Origin: an uncultured Clostridia bacterium
Lineage (GTDB): Bacteria > Bacillota > Clostridia > Oscillospirales > Acutalibacteraceae
Direction of reading: 5' to 3'
Assembly (NCBI GenBank): GCA_947166625.1
Contig: CAMVEX010000019.1
Span: 1 to 51,899, forward strand
DNA length: 51,899 nucleotides
Positions 25,720 through 51,899 of this stretch are shown here, in pieces. The position numbers and the translations under genes were made by a program. Position 1 is the first letter of the stretch, and the number at the start of each line of letters is the position of its first letter. The notes under the pieces were generated by a model that saw only the letters and a list, made by a program, of their open reading frames with translations, was not told the origin of the DNA and made no database searches.

Positions 25720-26352
25720 ATGAAAAAATATATTATTGCCGTTATTGCCGCTATAGCCGTATTCGCGGGCATTTTCCTTGCAAAGCCGATATTTAATCCC
25801 GAATACGAAAACGAATATACGGCGCTCTCGGTCATTGAAAGCAGTAAAGAAGCGAGCCTCAGCGAATCGCGCGAAGAATCGTCAAGGGATGAATTGACCG
25901 CCGAATACGCTTCTAAAACAAAGCAAACTTCAAGTTACAAAACCGAATCCGAAACTCAGCCGAAAACAGAAAAACAAACTTCTGCAAAGACGACCGCTAA
26001 AACTACGACCGTCTCTGCCGAGATCGACAGAAACGGAAGTTATTTCAGTAAGGACGATGTCGCTTTATATATCCATACATACGGCAGACTTCCTTCAAAT
26101 TTCATCACCAAAAAGCAGGCGCAGGCGCTCGGGTGGAGCGGCGGCTCGGTCGAGCGATATGCTCCCGGCAAAGCCATCGGCGGAGATTATTTCGGGAATT
26201 ATGAAGGCACGCTCCCCGACGGCAACTATCACGAATGTGATATAAACACAAACGGCAGATCTTCACGCGGAGAGGAAAGGATAATCTACTCTTCCGACGG
26301 CAGGATATATTATACCTCCGATCATTATGAATCATTTACCCGTTTGTATTGA
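25720..26352 (+). CDS. Membrane-anchored or secreted barnase-type ribonuclease
   Basis: This 210-residue protein has an N-terminal hydrophobic segment (4-21) followed by a Ser/Glu/Lys/Thr-rich linker to about residue 100. A C-terminal domain of about 105 residues follows and is clearly a barnase homologue: LPSNFITKKQAQALGW, APGKAIGGDYF and YSSDGRIYYTSDHYESFTR. The catalytic set is intact: E172 (barnase E73), R183 and R187 (R83 and R87) and H202 (H102). It should cut RNA, preferably 3' of guanine, outside the membrane. Hydrophobic residues 4-21 may be a signal peptide or an uncleaved anchor. The barstar-like inhibitor gene follows 22 bases later. GGTG precedes the ATG. Confidence 0.9.
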   Translation: MKKYIIAVIAAIAVFAGIFLAKPIFNPEYENEYTALSVIESSKEASLSESREESSRDELTAEYASKTKQTSSYKTESETQPKTEKQTSAKTTAKTTTVSAEIDRNGSYFSKDDVALYIHTYGRLPSNFITKKQAQALGWSGGSVERYAPGKAIGGDYFGNYEGTLPDGNYHECDINTNGRSSRGEERIIYSSDGRIYYTSDHYESFTRLY

Positions 26353-26374: not shown

Positions 26375-26659
26375 ATGAAACGCATTAAACTTGACGGCAA
26401 AAAGATGACGAGCCGCACGCAGGCTCACGAATATATAGCGAAAAAGCTGAAATTCCCCGATTATTACGGCAAGAATCTCGACGCGCTTGCCGACTGCCTC
26501 TCTGAAATCGGAACTCAAACGCAGATAAAGCTTATAAATACCCCCGATTTTATTGAGAATCTCGGCAATCAATATAAAGGCTTTATCAGAGTTTTTACAG
26601 ACGTATCGGAGAATAATGAATATCTGAATTTTGAAACCGATACGGAAATTGAAGAATAA
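26375..26659 (+). CDS. Barstar-family ribonuclease inhibitor
   Basis: This 94-residue acidic protein matches barstar (89 residues). The barnase-binding helix and loop read FPDYYGKNLDALADCL, with Y30, D36 and D40 at the positions of barstar Y29, D35 and D39. Barstar W38 is replaced by A39. The family forms a tight 1:1 complex that plugs the RNase active site, protecting the cytoplasm before export. It sits directly after the barnase-like gene, with AGGTAGGTG before the ATG, and ends the operon at the 26673-26703 terminator. No signal peptide is present, as expected for the immunity partner. Confidence 0.92.
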   Translation: MKRIKLDGKKMTSRTQAHEYIAKKLKFPDYYGKNLDALADCLSEIGTQTQIKLINTPDFIENLGNQYKGFIRVFTDVSENNEYLNFETDTEIEE

Positions 26660-26672
26660 TCAGACTTTATAA

Positions 26673-26703
26673 AAATACTGTCCGAAAATATCGGGCAGTA
26701 TTT
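26673..26703 (+). terminator. Rho-independent terminator after barstar
   Basis: A 13-bp stem, AAATACTGTCCGA with TCGGGCAGTATTT (one G-T pair), has a 5-base AAATA loop and is followed by further Ts. It lies 13 bases after the stop and closes the operon that begins at 19951. Confidence 0.88.
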
Positions 26704-26749
26704 TTGCGTTTTGAACTATTAAACCGATTATTATGTGTAAATTAAACTC

Positions 26750-26778
26750 TTGATTTATTTTCGGCTTTGTGTTACTAT
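26750..26778 (+). promoter_or_regulatory. Sigma-A promoter of the structured RNA
   Basis: TTGATT (26750-26755), 17-base spacer, TACTAT (26773-26778). The expected start (about 26785) is exactly the first base of the RNA's closing stem. Confidence 0.7.
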
Positions 26779-26784
26779 TGAGGA

Positions 26785-26949
26785 GCCAAACAATCTTAAT
26801 ATTATTCTTCTCGGAATACAGCGTGTATTTTTATCTTCGGGTAAAAATGCATACTCTGCCTTTACATGCTTTATTCTGAGATGTGAAGATTGTTTGGCGA
26901 CAGTCAGAGCTATGCGTTTTTCGTGCGTAGCTACGGCTGCGCACTTTTT
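26785..26949 (+). ncRNA. Candidate structured RNA (small RNA or attenuator leader)
   Basis: No protein explains this stretch. The 5' end GCCAAACAATCTT (26785-26797) pairs perfectly over 13 bp with AAGATTGTTTGGC (26886-26898). Inside, TCTCGGAATA (26809-26818) pairs with 26872-26881; after a C/T mismatch, AGCGTGTA (26820-26827) pairs with 26863-26870. A TTCG-capped 8-bp hairpin (26828-26847) sits at the tip, with a 15-base bulge on its 3' side. Several pairs are G-U, consistent with a structured RNA. A terminator hairpin (26923-26944) ends it, and an alternative hairpin (26908-26932) would compete with that terminator. It could be an independent RNA of about 165 bases or a regulatory leader of the gene at 27060. 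I do not recognise the class. Confidence 0.55.
26923..26949 (+). terminator. Terminator ending the structured RNA, with a competing antiterminator fold
   Basis: Nine-bp stem GTGCGTAGC/GCTGCGCAC (one wobble) with loop TACG, followed by TTTTTGATTTTT. The 5' arm can instead pair with AGCTATGCG (26908-26916), which would disrupt this hairpin. Confidence 0.75.
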
Positions 26950-27059
26950 GATTTTTATGAGAATTTTTTGAAAAATCAGAATAAAAATTCGTAAAGCTTT
27001 ATCTATATATATTAGAAAGTATTTTCAAACTGTCTTAATTTATCCCCCGGAGGTATTAT

Positions 27060-30000
27060 ATGAAATTATTCGGAAAGAAATTATTGGCAATAGCTATTTG
27101 TTTCATTATGATTTTCGGCTCTGTCGCAGTCGGCGGAGAGGGCTTTGCGGAGCTGCTTGAAGCGGTAAGCATAAAAGCAAGCGCTGAAACTTATAAAACA
27201 GGCGATACAATTTATTTTGGTACATATCCTCAAACAGATGTTACCGATACACTCGGTTCTGTTCTAAACTCTCAAAGCGGAATATGGAAATCATATAATT
27301 ATTACAGCGGTACGGGAAACATAGATGACGGTCAGATGACCGCTTCCGACTATATGAGATATAAAGATGTAACCTATAGCGGTAATAAATACCGAGGTGT
27401 TATCTTTGACACCTACAGACCGTATCGTACGGGGTATCAAACATCAACATCTGCCGATACTTATCAGGATGATAACGGCTACACTTGCGGCAATGTTTAC
27501 TGGTTCAAATATGAGCCGCTAAAATGGCGCGTGCTTGACCCGTCAACCGGTCTGATTATGTGCGACTCCATAATCGACAGTCAGCCATATAACAACTATA
27601 TACTATATGCCGATTCCGAAAATTGGGGTGATTCCGGCAAAACTTACTATGCGAATAACTACGCAAGTAGTAGTATCAGAAAATGGCTCAATGATGACTT
27701 TTACAATACTGCATTTTCCAATGAGCAGAAAGCCGATATAAAGATAACGACACTAAACAACGATGGATACTATACATTGGTTGGTAGAGCCGGATATAAA
27801 AAATATGATGCGCCTCTAACAGACGACAAAATCTTTCTTCTCTCTTATGATGAAGCAATTAATACAAGATTTTTTCATGATGACAATTCTCGTCGTGTAA
27901 TAGGAAGCGATTACGCAAAGAGTCAGGGACTAGATTTAACTGCTTGCATTGAGTGGAATTTACGATCGCCTGGAAATAGCTCAAGCAAGGTGTGTCGAGT
28001 TGAATTTGATGGAAATATTAATCCTAATATGGGCAATAGCGCTATAATGACAAATATGGGTGTTCGTCCCGCTATGTGTTTATCGGAATTGAAATCTGAT
28101 TACGCAGGCAGTGATATAGATGATTCATCCGCAGAGCCCGACGGAATGCGTGTTACCGTCAATAACACAGACTTAATATATACTGTCGGAGATGAGATAG
28201 TAATTGCGGTTTCTAATTTCAAAGATAACATTGAATCTTCCATAGAAAAGTTATCCGTTAAGTCTTCTGATTCAAATGTAGTTAAAGTCGGTTTAGTTTA
28301 TAAACAACATCCAAAGGGCATATTTGCCGGCATAAATAAAATATTTGACAAATGTACTTTTATCGTGTTGAATGCTGTTTCGGAGGGTGAAGCGTATGTA
28401 TCATTGACAAATTCCGATACCGGTGAAACAAGATTTATACCTTTTGTTGTAAACTGCAATAATACGGGCGCAGGTACATACAGAATTGATAATGTCAAGA
28501 CTTATAACCTTAATGAAACAGATGAATATAACGGATATGAACGCGGCGTGTATATAGCAGATATTAGTTACCATTACGGCAGCGTTCCCGAGGGCTACTA
28601 TATTTCAATGAATCTGTATAATAAAAATCATTGCTCAGGTGTTGTTGAAGTATATGACAGCGAAGGAAATCTTAAATCCATAGAAAATATAGAAAAATTA
28701 AAATTTGATACAAAAATATACAAGACGTTGTATAAAGGAACGGTAACAATCTCCAAAGAAATTTTTGACGGGAAAATCACTACATTTAAGAGTGAGTTTT
28801 TATCAAAGAAAACTGAAATTAAGGATATGTTTGTGCCGGCAGGCGGTTATTTCCGAGTAACCTGTGACCGCTCCGTTTCTTACGCCTGCGCGTTGTCACA
28901 GTGGGTAGATGATCTGTTTACGGCTATGTCTGTAACGAAGAGCTTTGTTAAATTGATTAAAGGCATAGATTCGATTGATGAAAAACAGGTGGTAGAACTT
29001 CGCAAACAGATCGTAAAGCAGTTTCTAAAAGACAAACCAAATGAACAACTGAAAGCTTTTATTAAAGATATTTCCAAAAAGTGGGCTGATAAATATGCAG
29101 AAAAATGGAAAGAAAAATTTGAAAAAAATGTAACTGATACATCAACTTTATATGAAATCATTACCGATGGCTTGGCCGACTTAAATAAACTTCTTGAGAT
29201 AACCGGTATAGATCTTAACACTGTGCTTAAAATATCATTTGGCTCAGCGGTAAGTGTAGCGGAAGGGGCTTTTACTGATGCAGCGGGATGGTACGGCTTA
29301 ATCATAAAAGGCATATTTTTAGCTGAAAGCTGTTATGATTTTTATCGTCAGCTTGACGATGCCAATAATTTGCCGACAGGGCTTACCAAACCATTGAACT
29401 ACTATACACCCTCAACGAGTCAATCCGGGATTCTTACGAATGAGGATGTAAAAATTAAAACAAACAAAAATGTTCCGTCGGAAACCGTGTTGGAATCATA
29501 CAGAATTATAAGCGGTAAAAAAGAAAATATAAATCTTCAAACAGGCAGGGTGTATTCCGACTATGAAGATTATCAAATTGCGCTTGTAAAAGACGGACAA
29601 TATATTCAGCCGAGCGGCCCGGTAGAGGTATTCATCAGTTCCCCGTATTCTAAAGCCATAGTTGCAAGGCAAAATGATGACGGCAGTTGGGAAATAATTA
29701 AGAGCAAAATTGAAAACGGAATGTTGATTTTTGAAGTCGATCATTTTTGCAGATTTGCCGTGATTGAAAATAACCCAACCGCCTCAGCCACCATTAACCT
29801 CAAATCCTCCGCCTCGGTTGCTTACCGCTCGGATGTGACGATTACAGCAACTGCAAGCAATTTGTCTTCGGAATATTTTCTGGCGATTTATGACGGTAAC
29901 ACGCTTCTTGCAAAAGGCGATAATTCAAGCGTTTCATATCACGCAGGCGAAATGAGAAACAGCAAAACTTTCACCGTAAAAGTCGTCGATTCAAACGGAG

Positions 30001-30134
30001 CAGTTCAAAGCAATTCATCGGGAGCGCTGCAAAAAGATATAAACGTCAATGTAAGCTCCGGATTCTTCGCCAAAATCATCGCATTTTTCAAAGCCCTATT
30101 CAGTCGACTTCCTAAGGTTGAGATCAAGCCGTAA
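27060..30134 (+). CDS. Large secreted protein with N-terminal DUF6273-like region
   Basis: This 1024-residue exported protein has a signal peptide over residues 1-42 (cleavage near KASAET). Residues about 45-360 match the DUF6273 type: GDTIYFGTYPQT, PLKWRVLDPS, SIRKWLNDDFYNTAFS and GVRPAMCLSE, all common in secreted gut-Clostridia proteins. A beta-rich stretch (about 370-590) and a long helical, Lys/Glu-rich part (about 640-790) follow. Then comes a beta-rich region (790-905) and an Ig-like segment starting near residue 910. It ends in the amphipathic tail GFFAKIIAFFKALFSRLPK, a pattern I associate with such surface proteins. Function unknown. The ribosome site CGGAGG is strong. No LPXTG motif or C-terminal membrane anchor is visible. 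Confidence 0.7.
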   Translation: MKLFGKKLLAIAICFIMIFGSVAVGGEGFAELLEAVSIKASAETYKTGDTIYFGTYPQTDVTDTLGSVLNSQSGIWKSYNYYSGTGNIDDGQMTASDYMRYKDVTYSGNKYRGVIFDTYRPYRTGYQTSTSADTYQDDNGYTCGNVYWFKYEPLKWRVLDPSTGLIMCDSIIDSQPYNNYILYADSENWGDSGKTYYANNYASSSIRKWLNDDFYNTAFSNEQKADIKITTLNNDGYYTLVGRAGYKKYDAPLTDDKIFLLSYDEAINTRFFHDDNSRRVIGSDYAKSQGLDLTACIEWNLRSPGNSSSKVCRVEFDGNINPNMGNSAIMTNMGVRPAMCLSELKSDYAGSDIDDSSAEPDGMRVTVNNTDLIYTVGDEIVIAVSNFKDNIESSIEKLSVKSSDSNVVKVGLVYKQHPKGIFAGINKIFDKCTFIVLNAVSEGEAYVSLTNSDTGETRFIPFVVNCNNTGAGTYRIDNVKTYNLNETDEYNGYERGVYIADISYHYGSVPEGYYISMNLYNKNHCSGVVEVYDSEGNLKSIENIEKLKFDTKIYKTLYKGTVTISKEIFDGKITTFKSEFLSKKTEIKDMFVPAGGYFRVTCDRSVSYACALSQWVDDLFTAMSVTKSFVKLIKGIDSIDEKQVVELRKQIVKQFLKDKPNEQLKAFIKDISKKWADKYAEKWKEKFEKNVTDTSTLYEIITDGLADLNKLLEITGIDLNTVLKISFGSAVSVAEGAFTDAAGWYGLIIKGIFLAESCYDFYRQLDDANNLPTGLTKPLNYYTPSTSQSGILTNEDVKIKTNKNVPSETVLESYRIISGKKENINLQTGRVYSDYEDYQIALVKDGQYIQPSGPVEVFISSPYSKAIVARQNDDGSWEIIKSKIENGMLIFEVDHFCRFAVIENNPTASATINLKSSASVAYRSDVTITATASNLSSEYFLAIYDGNTLLAKGDNSSVSYHAGEMRNSKTFTVKVVDSNGAVQSNSSGALQKDINVNVSSGFFAKIIAFFKALFSRLPKVEIKP

Positions 30135-30695: not shown

Positions 30696-32366
30696 TTATT
30701 TTTTATTCCCGAAAAGGCCTCTGAGGATTGAGCTTGTGCCGCTTCTCATAACGGAACTGAGTGCGTTTGTGGCGGCTCTTTTTGCTATCGTCTGCGCGCT
30801 TGTCTTTTTGCCGCCGAGAACGGAATTTATCATATTTGTGCTGACCGATCTCGCGACGGATGATGCAGCGTTTGTAGCGGCTCGCTGAGCGGCTTTTGAT
30901 GCGGCGCTCTGTTTTTTCTTTGAATTCTTTGCCGCTTCTCTTTCGGCTTTTGCCGCCTCACGCTCTGCCCTTGCTGCCTCTTTAGCGGCTTCTTTCTCTG
31001 CTTTTTCTGCTTCTTTTGCGGCAAGAGCTTCCGCCTTCTGCCTCTCTTCCTCTTCTGCCAAAGCGGCTGCTTCCTCTTCAAGCTTCTGACGGGCCGCCAT
31101 GATTATTTCATAAGCCGATTCTCTGTCAACGCATTCTCTGTATTTAATATCAAATTCATCGCTGATGATAAGAGATTTTACCTTTTCGCTGTCTGCAGGG
31201 CCCATAAGGCTGCAGGGAGGAAGGATCTTTGCCTTTTCTACGATATTCGGAATTCCGTTTTCGTCAAGAAAACTGACAAGCGCCTCCCCTGTTCCGAGCT
31301 CTTTGAGCGCTTCCTCCGAATCAAAAGACGGATTGGCTCTGAATGACTGAGCGGCGGCTCTTATGGACTTTTGCTCAGACGGCGTATATGCTCTCAAACC
31401 GTGCTGAACTCTGTTTGAAAGCTGAGCGAGCACCTCATCTGGTATATCCGAAGGCGACTGAGTGACAAAATAAATACCGACGCCCTTTGAGCGGATAAGC
31501 TTTACCACCTGGACTATCTTTTGCACCATGGCTTTGGGAGCATCGGCAAAAAGAAGATGGGCTTCATCAAAGAAGAATATCATCCTCGGTTTATCGAGAT
31601 CGCCGACCTCGGGCAGTTTTTCAAAGAGCTCTGTCATCATCCAAAGCAAAAATGTGGCGTAAACCGTAGGGCTCTGAATGAGGCGGTTGCTTGAAAGGAT
31701 ATTTATAAATCCCCTACCGTCAATATCCGTCCTCATCCAATCGCGTATATCAAGATCGGGCTCGCCGAAGAATATATCTCCGCCCTCATCCTCAAACTTA
31801 AGGAGCGCACGCTGGATAGCGCCGATGCTTTGAGTAGTAACATTACCGTATGAAAGCGTGTATTCCGCTCTGTTATCGCCGACATATTGAAGCATCGCTC
31901 TGAGATCTTTAAGATCGAGAAGCAGAAGCCCCTGCTCATCGGCAGCTTTGAATACGATATTCAGCACTCCTTCCTGCACCTCGGTCAAGCCGAGAAGTCT
32001 CGAAAGAAGGGTCGGCCCCATATCGGATATCGTTACCCTTACGGGGTGGCCGCATTCGCCGAAAATATCCCAAAATCTTGTGGGGTAGCCCTTATATTTA
32101 AAGTTTTCAATTCCGAAATATGCAATTCGCTTCTGCATGTTTTCAGAATCAACTCCGGGCACGCAGGTGCCGCTCAAATCTCCCTTTACATCGCTGAAAA
32201 ACACTGGCACGCCCATATCGGAAAAAGATTCTGCCATAACCTTCATTGTAATGGTCTTGCCGGTGCCGGTAGCTCCTGCGATAAGGCCGTGGCGGTTTGC
32301 CATTTTGGGAATGATAAAGCAATCTATATTTGATTTTGCCATCCAGATTTTGCCGTCTTTATACAT
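30696..32366 (-). CDS. HerA-like ATPase, DUF853/YjgR family
   Basis: This 556-residue protein has Walker A GATGTGKT (31-38) and Walker B with MIFFFDEAHLLF. Near the N-terminus it has FSDVKGDLSGTC, as in the DUF853 (YjgR) branch of HerA/FtsK-type ATPases. The ATPase core ends near residue 400. A long Ala/Glu/Lys coiled-coil-like region (about 425-495) and a basic Ser/Ala-rich tail follow. Close homologues have no settled function; HerA relatives move or process DNA with a nuclease, and no nuclease partner is adjacent. Its own promoter and terminator make it monocistronic. Confidence 0.82.
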   Translation of the reverse strand: MYKDGKIWMAKSNIDCFIIPKMANRHGLIAGATGTGKTITMKVMAESFSDMGVPVFFSDVKGDLSGTCVPGVDSENMQKRIAYFGIENFKYKGYPTRFWDIFGECGHPVRVTISDMGPTLLSRLLGLTEVQEGVLNIVFKAADEQGLLLLDLKDLRAMLQYVGDNRAEYTLSYGNVTTQSIGAIQRALLKFEDEGGDIFFGEPDLDIRDWMRTDIDGRGFINILSSNRLIQSPTVYATFLLWMMTELFEKLPEVGDLDKPRMIFFFDEAHLLFADAPKAMVQKIVQVVKLIRSKGVGIYFVTQSPSDIPDEVLAQLSNRVQHGLRAYTPSEQKSIRAAAQSFRANPSFDSEEALKELGTGEALVSFLDENGIPNIVEKAKILPPCSLMGPADSEKVKSLIISDEFDIKYRECVDRESAYEIIMAARQKLEEEAAALAEEEERQKAEALAAKEAEKAEKEAAKEAARAEREAAKAEREAAKNSKKKQSAASKAAQRAATNAASSVARSVSTNMINSVLGGKKTSAQTIAKRAATNALSSVMRSGTSSILRGLFGNKK

Positions 32367-51539: not shown

Positions 51540-51615
51540 TGGTGATCCACCGGGGACTCGAACCCCGGACACCTTGATTAAAAGTCAAGTGCTCTACCGC
51601 CTGAGCTAGTGGATC
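51540..51615 (-). tRNA. tRNA-Lys (UUU)
   Basis: A complete 76-base cloverleaf with encoded CCA is on the minus strand. The acceptor pairs GATCCAC with GTGGATC. The D-arm has TAGCTCAGGCGGTAGAGC, the anticodon loop reads CTTTTAA (anticodon TTT) and the T-loop is GGTTCGAGTCC. It has its own promoter at 51634-51662 and a terminator. Confidence 0.97.
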
Positions 51616-51633
51616 GTTATTTGACGCTTAGAT

Positions 51634-51662
51634 ATAATAGCCTATTTGATATAGATTGTCAA
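51634..51662 (-). promoter_or_regulatory. Promoter of tRNA-Lys
   Basis: Minus strand: consensus TTGACA (51662-51657), 17-base spacer, TATTAT (51639-51634). Confidence 0.8.
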
Positions 51663-51702
51663 GACCTAATTTCAAAAAAATTATATAATTTAGAAATAAA
51701 TA

Positions 51703-51731
51703 TTGACATTTAAAATCGTTTGTGTTAATAT
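51703..51731 (+). promoter_or_regulatory. Promoter of the tRNA-Gly/tRNA-Arg cluster
   Basis: Consensus TTGACA (51703-51708), 17-base spacer, TAATAT (51726-51731), divergent from the tRNA-Lys promoter. Confidence 0.8.
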
Positions 51732-51748
51732 TTCTAAGCACTTGAGAT

Positions 51749-51823
51749 GCGGGTGTAGTTCAATGGTTAGAATTCCAGCCTTCCAAGCTGGCTGTGTGGG
51801 TTCGATTCCCATCACCCGCTCCA
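51749..51823 (+). tRNA. tRNA-Gly (UCC)
   Basis: A 75-base cloverleaf including encoded CCA. The acceptor is GCGGGTG with CACCCGC, the anticodon loop CTTCCAA (anticodon TCC) and the T-arm GGTTCGATTCC. It is 17 bases after the promoter -10. Confidence 0.97.
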
Positions 51824-51828
51824 TTTTT

Positions 51829-51899
<71 letters not shown>

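Follow-up and report, generated by a model that had tools for sequence, protein, structure and literature searches.

A candidate family of riboswitch-like transcription attenuators ahead of genes for secreted-type proteins in uncultured gut Clostridia

Introduction

Does a compact RNA with its own promoter and terminator act on the gene that follows it, or does it leave its locus as a regulator in trans? The question is raised by the window, the whole stretch of DNA that was analysed (51,899 nucleotides from an uncultured Clostridia bacterium of the Acutalibacteraceae), in which such an RNA, hereafter the switch RNA, precedes the gene for a protein with a signal-peptide-like N-terminus. The initial annotation, made from this single sequence, left the choice between a small regulatory RNA and a riboswitch-like attenuator. 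Comparison with copies from many genomes suggests, with a probability of roughly three in four, that the switch RNA is a cis-acting, riboswitch-like transcription attenuator, which would switch by the exchange of strands in a pseudoknot. The RNA, a candidate regulator that is widespread among uncultured gut Clostridia, is absent from Rfam 15 and offers a sequence handle on the possible switching of surface and secreted proteins in these bacteria.

The locus and its fold

The switch RNA has 165 nt (26785-26949) and a minimum free energy of -64.3 kcal/mol, compared with -35.6 (sd 3.7) in shuffles, which corresponds to a z-score of -7.85 and is reached by none of 200 dinucleotide shuffles; its 5′ domain (26785-26897), folded alone, has a z-score of -8.76. 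The closing stem, P1, encloses a 5′ loop and an arm of two further helices (P2 and P3) capped by UUCG; a short linker then leads to two hairpins, which have one strand in common. A long-range helix, P4, is predicted in addition, and the two alternative states are called OFF and ON.

26750-26778, + strand: putative promoter, from its sequence and its position in the family; -35 box TTGATT (26750-26755), 17-nt spacer, TG (26770-26771), -10 box TACTAT (26773-26778)
26785-26949, + strand: switch RNA, from the first base of P1 to the end of the T-run; fold z-score -7.85, 147.7 bits with covariance model R1
26785-26797, + strand: P1 closing stem, 5′ strand, paired with 26886-26898; fold and covariation
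26798-26808, + strand: asymmetric 5′ loop between P1 and P2, with a conserved AAUA; column conservation in alignment A6
26809-26827, + strand: 5′ strands of P2 (26809-26818 with 26872-26881, 26820-26827 with 26863-26870); fold and covariation
26828-26847, + strand: P3 apical hairpin (26828-26835 with 26840-26847), loop UUCG; fold and covariation
26843-26858, + strand: central strand AAAAAUGCAUACUCUG, predicted 5′ side of P4 (OFF), its 5′ part also in P3; own-versus-swapped duplexes and P4 covariation
26863-26881, + strand: 3′ strands of P2; fold
26886-26898, + strand: P1 closing stem, 3′ strand; fold and covariation
26905-26921, + strand: 5′ strand of the antiterminator, predicted 3′ side of P4 in the OFF state (16 pairs, C26910 bulged); own-versus-swapped duplexes and covariation
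26908-26932, + strand: predicted antiterminator hairpin, ON state (26908-26916 with 26924-26932); -11.2 kcal/mol, 94.0% of cells paired in its main part
26923-26949, + strand: predicted intrinsic terminator, OFF state, with hairpin 26923-26944 and T-run 26945-26949; -17.5 kcal/mol, 100% of cells paired
27049-30134, + strand: gene proposed as controlled, with GGAGG at 27049-27053 and an ORF at 27060-30134 (1024 aa; signal-peptide-like N-terminus, DUF6273)

This fold contains all four stems of the initial annotation (13, 10, 8 and 8 bp) and also its TTCG loop, and the bulge of 15 bases described there shrinks to the 11 bases of the 5′ loop, three of them weakly paired. In relatives, the AAUA of this loop is conserved at 80, 96, 95 and 92% per column, and a sarcin-ricin-like motif is one reading of it that was considered as an assumption. 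Apart from AAUA and some bases in loops and linkers, the conserved columns of the aligned copies revealed no pocket of the metabolite-aptamer type. The linker after P1 measures 7 nt in 93 of 103 aligned copies and the second linker 9-10 nt in 96 of 103; by estimate, linkers of such near-constant length could span the P1/P2 arm, as a pseudoknot needs.

The terminator hairpin and T-run, the end hairpin described earlier, form the sole terminator-like site listed in 26600-27120 (one found, 0.2 expected). The overlapping alternative hairpin that had been noted likewise recurs as the antiterminator, whose 3′ strand (26924-26932) is shared with the 5′ strand of the terminator, and by sequence the two hairpins are mutually exclusive through this overlap. 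An attenuator calls for an intrinsic terminator between promoter and start codon, and for a conserved antiterminator that excludes it; both are predicted here, the latter with changes that are mostly one-sided.

A multicopy family in Clostridia

A blastn search of 60 related genomes revealed further copies in the same genome and in relatives, together with many weak matches that are due to chance. A covariance model, R1, was built from 25 copies and detects seven in the genome of the window. Within the order, 141 of 394 genomes and 74 of 169 genera match at E ≤ 0.001, and in a draw from the class 96 of 391 genomes match at E ≤ 1e-4, 93 of these being labelled as the same class; in both searches, seven or eight candidates were scored per genome. 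In a draw from the phylum, the genome of the window is the only one of 348 that matches at E ≤ 1e-6, which shows that the model rarely gives false matches; as some of the rows printed from this draw are of the same order or class as the genome of the window, genomes that lack the RNA are frequent in these groups as well. In 15 genomes, most of them picked for having reached seven or eight scored candidates before, a deeper search gave between 0 and 29 matches each at E ≤ 1e-4, with 14 of the 15 positive. An exact 36-base pattern occurs in 78 named contigs, the titles of which mostly refer to Clostridia, Oscillospiraceae or Ruminococcaceae and in many cases to gut or rumen. A phage origin was rejected by a narrow test, the exact pattern being absent from viral contigs.

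Two sets of copies were used. For the first, 145 of 170 matches were taken, corresponding to 131 unique copies; those dropped were 19 matches below 35 bits (11 and 8) on the opposite strand of real copies, four cut by a contig end (L102, L105, L110, L119) and two repeat loci (L130, L152). For the second, fetched later, 60 of 78 matches were taken after the removal of 17 same-place repeats in overlapping loci and one match of 41 bits, and some of these copies come from the same order or family and not from elsewhere in the class. One copy (L037, 4050-4154) has kept P1 and the terminator and lost most of the inner domain; it lies upstream of a secreted-type protein.

Tandem arrays of two to four RNA units occur, for example at L197 1067-2033, L128 1186-1664 and L067 260-745, and by eye most printed copies have their own promoter. 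At L197 the units follow each other with separate promoters and no gene in between. At L128 and L067, a broken-off repeat of the beginning of the next gene stands between the units, which shows that the RNA unit was copied as a block.

Promoter and transcription start

The promoter at 26750-26778 falls under the threshold of the promoter scanner and was thus not listed by it, and the window copy is atypical in its altered -10 box and in the 110 nt between the T-run and the start codon. The earlier assignment of this promoter is nevertheless backed by the family, in which the same position is that of the -10 box in 127 of 131 copies of the first set (at least four of six bases, upstream of P1). 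In the same copies TGn precedes the -10 box in 123, a -35 box is present in 103, the spacer is 17 nt in 93, and the gap from the -10 box to P1 is 6 nt in 121; at 390 control positions, the -10 box was found in 32, TGn in 2 and the -35 box in 4. The 60 copies of the second set behave alike (-10 box in 59, TGn in 56, -35 box in 52, a 6-nt gap in 54), compared with 17, 0 and 7 at 180 control positions for the three boxes. Since the -10 box, the TGn and the 6-nt gap are this regular in contrast to the controls, a transcription start on the first base of P1, as proposed in the initial annotation, may be considered well supported, and the switch RNA is probably transcribed. Most copies are units of an extended -10 promoter, the switch RNA, an intrinsic terminator and a start codon.

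Covariation and the long-range helix P4

Conservation and covariation in relatives, on which the initial annotation had made its RNA depend, were both found. Alignment A6 comprises 103 copies from 100 loci and was guided by the model, the structure of which contains P1, P2, P3 and the terminator; P4 and the antiterminator lie outside it. Counted without a tree, in related copies that are not independent events and against shuffles that, like the swaps below, keep this relatedness, the OFF structure (P1, P2, P4 and terminator) is paired in 96.7% of cells, with both-sided changes in 30 of 43 pairs and 541 both-sided cells against 164 in shuffles. Under the same conditions, the ON structure (P1, P2, P3 and antiterminator) has 95.7% of cells paired, both-sided changes in 24 of 39 pairs and 533 such cells against 170, and none of 500 shuffles reaches the value of either structure. 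Both alternative states of one expression platform can thus be read from covariation.

Among the single elements, P1 has 99.0% of cells paired and both-sided changes in five of nine modelled pairs, P2 has such changes in all ten modelled pairs, P3 has 96.5% of cells paired, and the terminator has 100% of cells paired with both-sided changes in seven of nine pairs. The main part of the antiterminator is paired in 94.0% of cells, and as its changes are mostly one-sided, the support for it is weaker than for P1, P2, P4 and the terminator.

P4, in which the central strand (26843-26858) is predicted to pair with the antiterminator strand (26905-26921), lay beyond the reach of the initial annotation, as did the multicopy family and the regular layout from promoter to start codon. 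Taken alone, it has both-sided changes in 8 of 15 pairs, compared with 3.9 in shuffles, and 42 both-sided cells compared with 14.3 (0/500 shuffles), and pairing falls from 95.1% to 31-65% once the partner is shifted by one to three columns. Three of its pairs are invariant, and two inner pairs are often unpaired (in 21 and 29 sequences). The central strand also pairs better with the antiterminator strand of its own copy than with those of others: in 105 copies, in part of which P4 had already been spotted by eye, the mean is -16.8 kcal/mol for own and -14.5 (sd 0.24) for swapped partners, a value that none of 5000 swaps reaches. From this test, 26 of the 131 copies were left out because the strand pattern did not parse; a looser pattern parsed all 60 copies of the second set, in which the values are -15.2 and -13.1 kcal/mol (0/5000). 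The difference persists among 35 copies, most of which belong to one genus (-16.9 and -15.2 kcal/mol, 0/5000), and with the seven copies of the genome of the window the test is weak, 120 of 5000 swaps being as low. Across 165 copies, the best intramolecular partner of the central strand is the antiterminator strand in 146 and another site in 19.

Genes downstream of the switch RNA

In the first set, the start codon, chosen by a rule that favours a Shine-Dalgarno sequence, lies at a median of 21 nt past the T-run and within 40 nt in 99 of 127 copies; two of the 131 copies are without an ORF, and the 127 were kept for a start within 200 nt. It lies within 60 nt in 33 of 58 copies of the second set, a low count that is explained in part by tandem copies situated upstream of another copy.

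By a home-made hydrophobicity rule, which is not SignalP, 53 of 82 genes of at least 100 aa that start within 60 nt are signal-peptide-like, compared with 70 of 507 other ORFs of the same loci (odds ratio 11.4, Fisher p 4e-21). When all 127 downstream ORFs are considered, 65 are signal-peptide-like and 62, many of them short, are not; for the second set the figure is 17 of 22, with no separate control. A Pfam scan covered 117 of the 127 proteins, leaving aside ten doubtful, very long or repeated picks (L022, L024, L026, L067, L069, L075, L090, L092, L128, L133), and among the 25 commonest of 72 families are the BspA-type leucine-rich repeat (LRR, 21), AMP-binding (7), the Listeria-Bacteroides repeat (6), Big_2 (4), and SLH, dockerin, DUF6809 and the double zinc ribbon (3 each). 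The largest downstream group is therefore of secreted-type and LRR proteins, and the others are AMP-binding enzymes, zinc ribbons and recurrent small proteins without assigned function. Such a broad set, centred on secreted and surface proteins, suggests a physiological signal instead of the feedback of one pathway, and the family would predict a regulon genome by genome.

Two groups of downstream proteins recur. A cysteine-rich protein of about 60-85 aa with the motif GN.G[KR]DC.GNG...ECCCDEC follows the copies at L162, L173, L213, L214 and L096, and the two members tested with Pfam (L162 and L173) gave no match. Proteins with a common N-terminus like LTGYPSIDKPWLKYYSEE follow those at L015, L049, L079, L082, L111, L114 and L151.

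A proposed model of strand exchange

In the proposed mechanism, transcription would begin at the RNA's own sigma-A-type promoter, and the RNA would decide whether the polymerase continues into the gene that follows. When the antiterminator 5′ strand leaves the polymerase, it would have two possible partners. A free central strand would form with it the 16-bp P4, in a pseudoknot with P1; P4 would block the antiterminator, the following strand would form the terminator, and an RNA of about 165 nt would be released (OFF). A central strand held in P2/P3 would instead let the antiterminator hairpin form, which would exclude the terminator and permit transcription of the gene (ON). Termination would accordingly be governed by P4, and the signal would act on the 5′ domain. 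Mean energies over the family are about -9.7 kcal/mol for the P3-like local hairpin, -13.4 for the antiterminator and -16.3 for the terminator, and because P4 and the terminator come out as the more stable helices, by energies that leave out the cost of the pseudoknot, OFF is presumably the default. As for the signal, a small ligand is the likeliest candidate, at just short of even odds, followed by a protein or other factor.

Comparison with known regulatory RNAs

In Rfam 15, the matches over threshold in the whole window are three tRNAs, none of them at the switch RNA, and the three tRNA genes lie at 51543-51899, near the end of the window. A search of 26600-27100 with E up to 10 gave ten matches, all well below threshold and none from a bacterial cis-regulatory family; at 20 other family loci, Rfam 15 reports tRNA and rRNA only. 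The initial annotation could not assign the RNA to SRP RNA, tmRNA, T-box or common riboswitches. A search of the accessible full-text literature gave no description of the switch RNA, although a supplement may contain it as an unnamed motif. None is contained in the passages seen of PMC8040213, which by its title reports thousands of candidates, or in those of PMC13273304, and a term search of PMC11109978 gave none. The switch RNA is thus rated, being outside Rfam 15 and without a description found, as a new family, probably of riboswitch-like attenuators.

The fluoride riboswitch (RF01734) and other terminators with pseudoknots resemble it in the position in a 5′ leader, the structured domain and the choice between a pseudoknot and an intrinsic-terminator helix, although none of them is matched by Rfam at the switch RNA. 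Here, the pseudoknot would free the terminator, whereas the passages seen of one source place pseudoknot and terminator of the fluoride riboswitch in opposite states (PMC13273304). Further differences are the separate antiterminator, an expression platform that is conserved and covaries across families, whereas covarying platforms are described in the same passages as hard to see in known riboswitch classes (PMC13273304), and the number of copies, one genome having 29 matches at E ≤ 1e-4. The predicted switching layout, with a conserved platform in which a pseudoknot removes the antiterminator, differs from the classes compared here. It is proposed tentatively, at less than even odds, that the family is a new riboswitch class, seen to date in one bacterial class (Clostridia, by the named records), in which a putative ligand would control a large part of the secreted and surface proteome by way of such a pseudoknot, with up to 29 copies per genome.

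Cyclic di-GMP riboswitches (GEMM) control genes for surface and adhesion proteins in Clostridia and would be similar in this multicopy control; at the window RNA and 20 other loci they have no Rfam match. EAR, put and LoaP/dfn are processive antitermination elements, in which an RNA close to the transcript start likewise governs termination. By this general description, the switch RNA differs from them in its own predicted terminator/antiterminator pair and in P4, and none of them is matched by Rfam. 6S RNA has a similar shape, with a long closing stem and an internal loop; the switch RNA, in contrast, usually precedes a start codon and has an exclusive antiterminator. The conceivable 6S-like identity of the initial annotation was dropped for the window copy, the genome's sole 6S match over the cut-off (RF00013, 56.9 bits) being found elsewhere (L021 1501-1716, corresponding to G000:C7:16592-16807).

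Two other candidates were rejected. Leader-peptide attenuation seems not to fit, as among the sequences listed an ATG after GGAGCT is present in many copies and missing in others, and no other common short ORF was seen by eye. In the genome of the window, searches for a separate antisense RNA with the central and the antiterminator strand found seven and six family copies plus two and one mismatched sites, and these extra sites were taken as chance because reversed-pattern controls gave two and four.

Alternative explanations

The attenuator is favoured over a free small RNA by the proximity of the start codon, by the exclusive antiterminator and terminator and by the enrichment of secreted-type genes. 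The released RNA of about 165 nt could otherwise be a multicopy small RNA that works away from its locus, either on RNA polymerase in the manner of 6S RNA or through pairing with other copies or other messages, and its neighbours would then be incidental. Nearly every unit having its own promoter would suit such an RNA, as would the strong terminator, the gene-free array of up to four units with separate promoters (L197), the copies that are without a nearby start codon and the duplex matrix, in which strands from different copies also form good pairs. The own promoters of most tandem copies even count against a simple series of attenuators, which does not need them. Incidental neighbours are, however, difficult to reconcile with the short and regular distance to the start codon in most of the first set and with the strong bias of the next gene, and a trans-acting RNA would explain neither the mutual exclusion of the two hairpins nor pairing that covaries within a copy; the genome moreover has its separate 6S RNA. 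An action in trans is therefore considered unlikely, and kept alive by the tandem copies that have promoters and no gene.

A closer competitor, appreciably below even odds and overlapping with the best explanation, is an attenuator that responds to something other than a ligand, such as an RNA-binding or polymerase-bound protein, temperature or the speed of transcription. EAR, put and LoaP are precedents for antitermination set by proteins. The most constant sequences include the switching strands themselves, little conserved unpaired sequence is left for a ligand pocket, and the downstream genes are diverse, all of which speaks for such a signal, but the constant AAUA loop and the near-fixed linkers leave room for a pocket. 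Least probable of all is a passive cassette of promoter and leader that was spread by duplication and allows a constant low read-through without any signal. The block copying seen at L128 and L067 agrees with it; two exclusive sets of helices, kept by compensatory changes over many families, would not be expected for a terminator of fixed strength. What sequence comparison provides for the strand-exchange attenuator is the family, the promoter position, the stems and the exclusion by overlap, the complementarity and covariation of P4, the position of the start codon and the secreted-type bias.

Neighbouring genes in the window

Directly upstream of the RNA unit lie a gene for a secreted-type ribonuclease (25720-26352, PF00545) and then one for a barstar-family inhibitor (26375-26659, PF01337), which together look like a toxin-immunity pair. 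Past the ORF at 27060-30134, the minus strand encodes a HerA-type ATPase/helicase (30696-32366, PF05872, E 5.6e-207).
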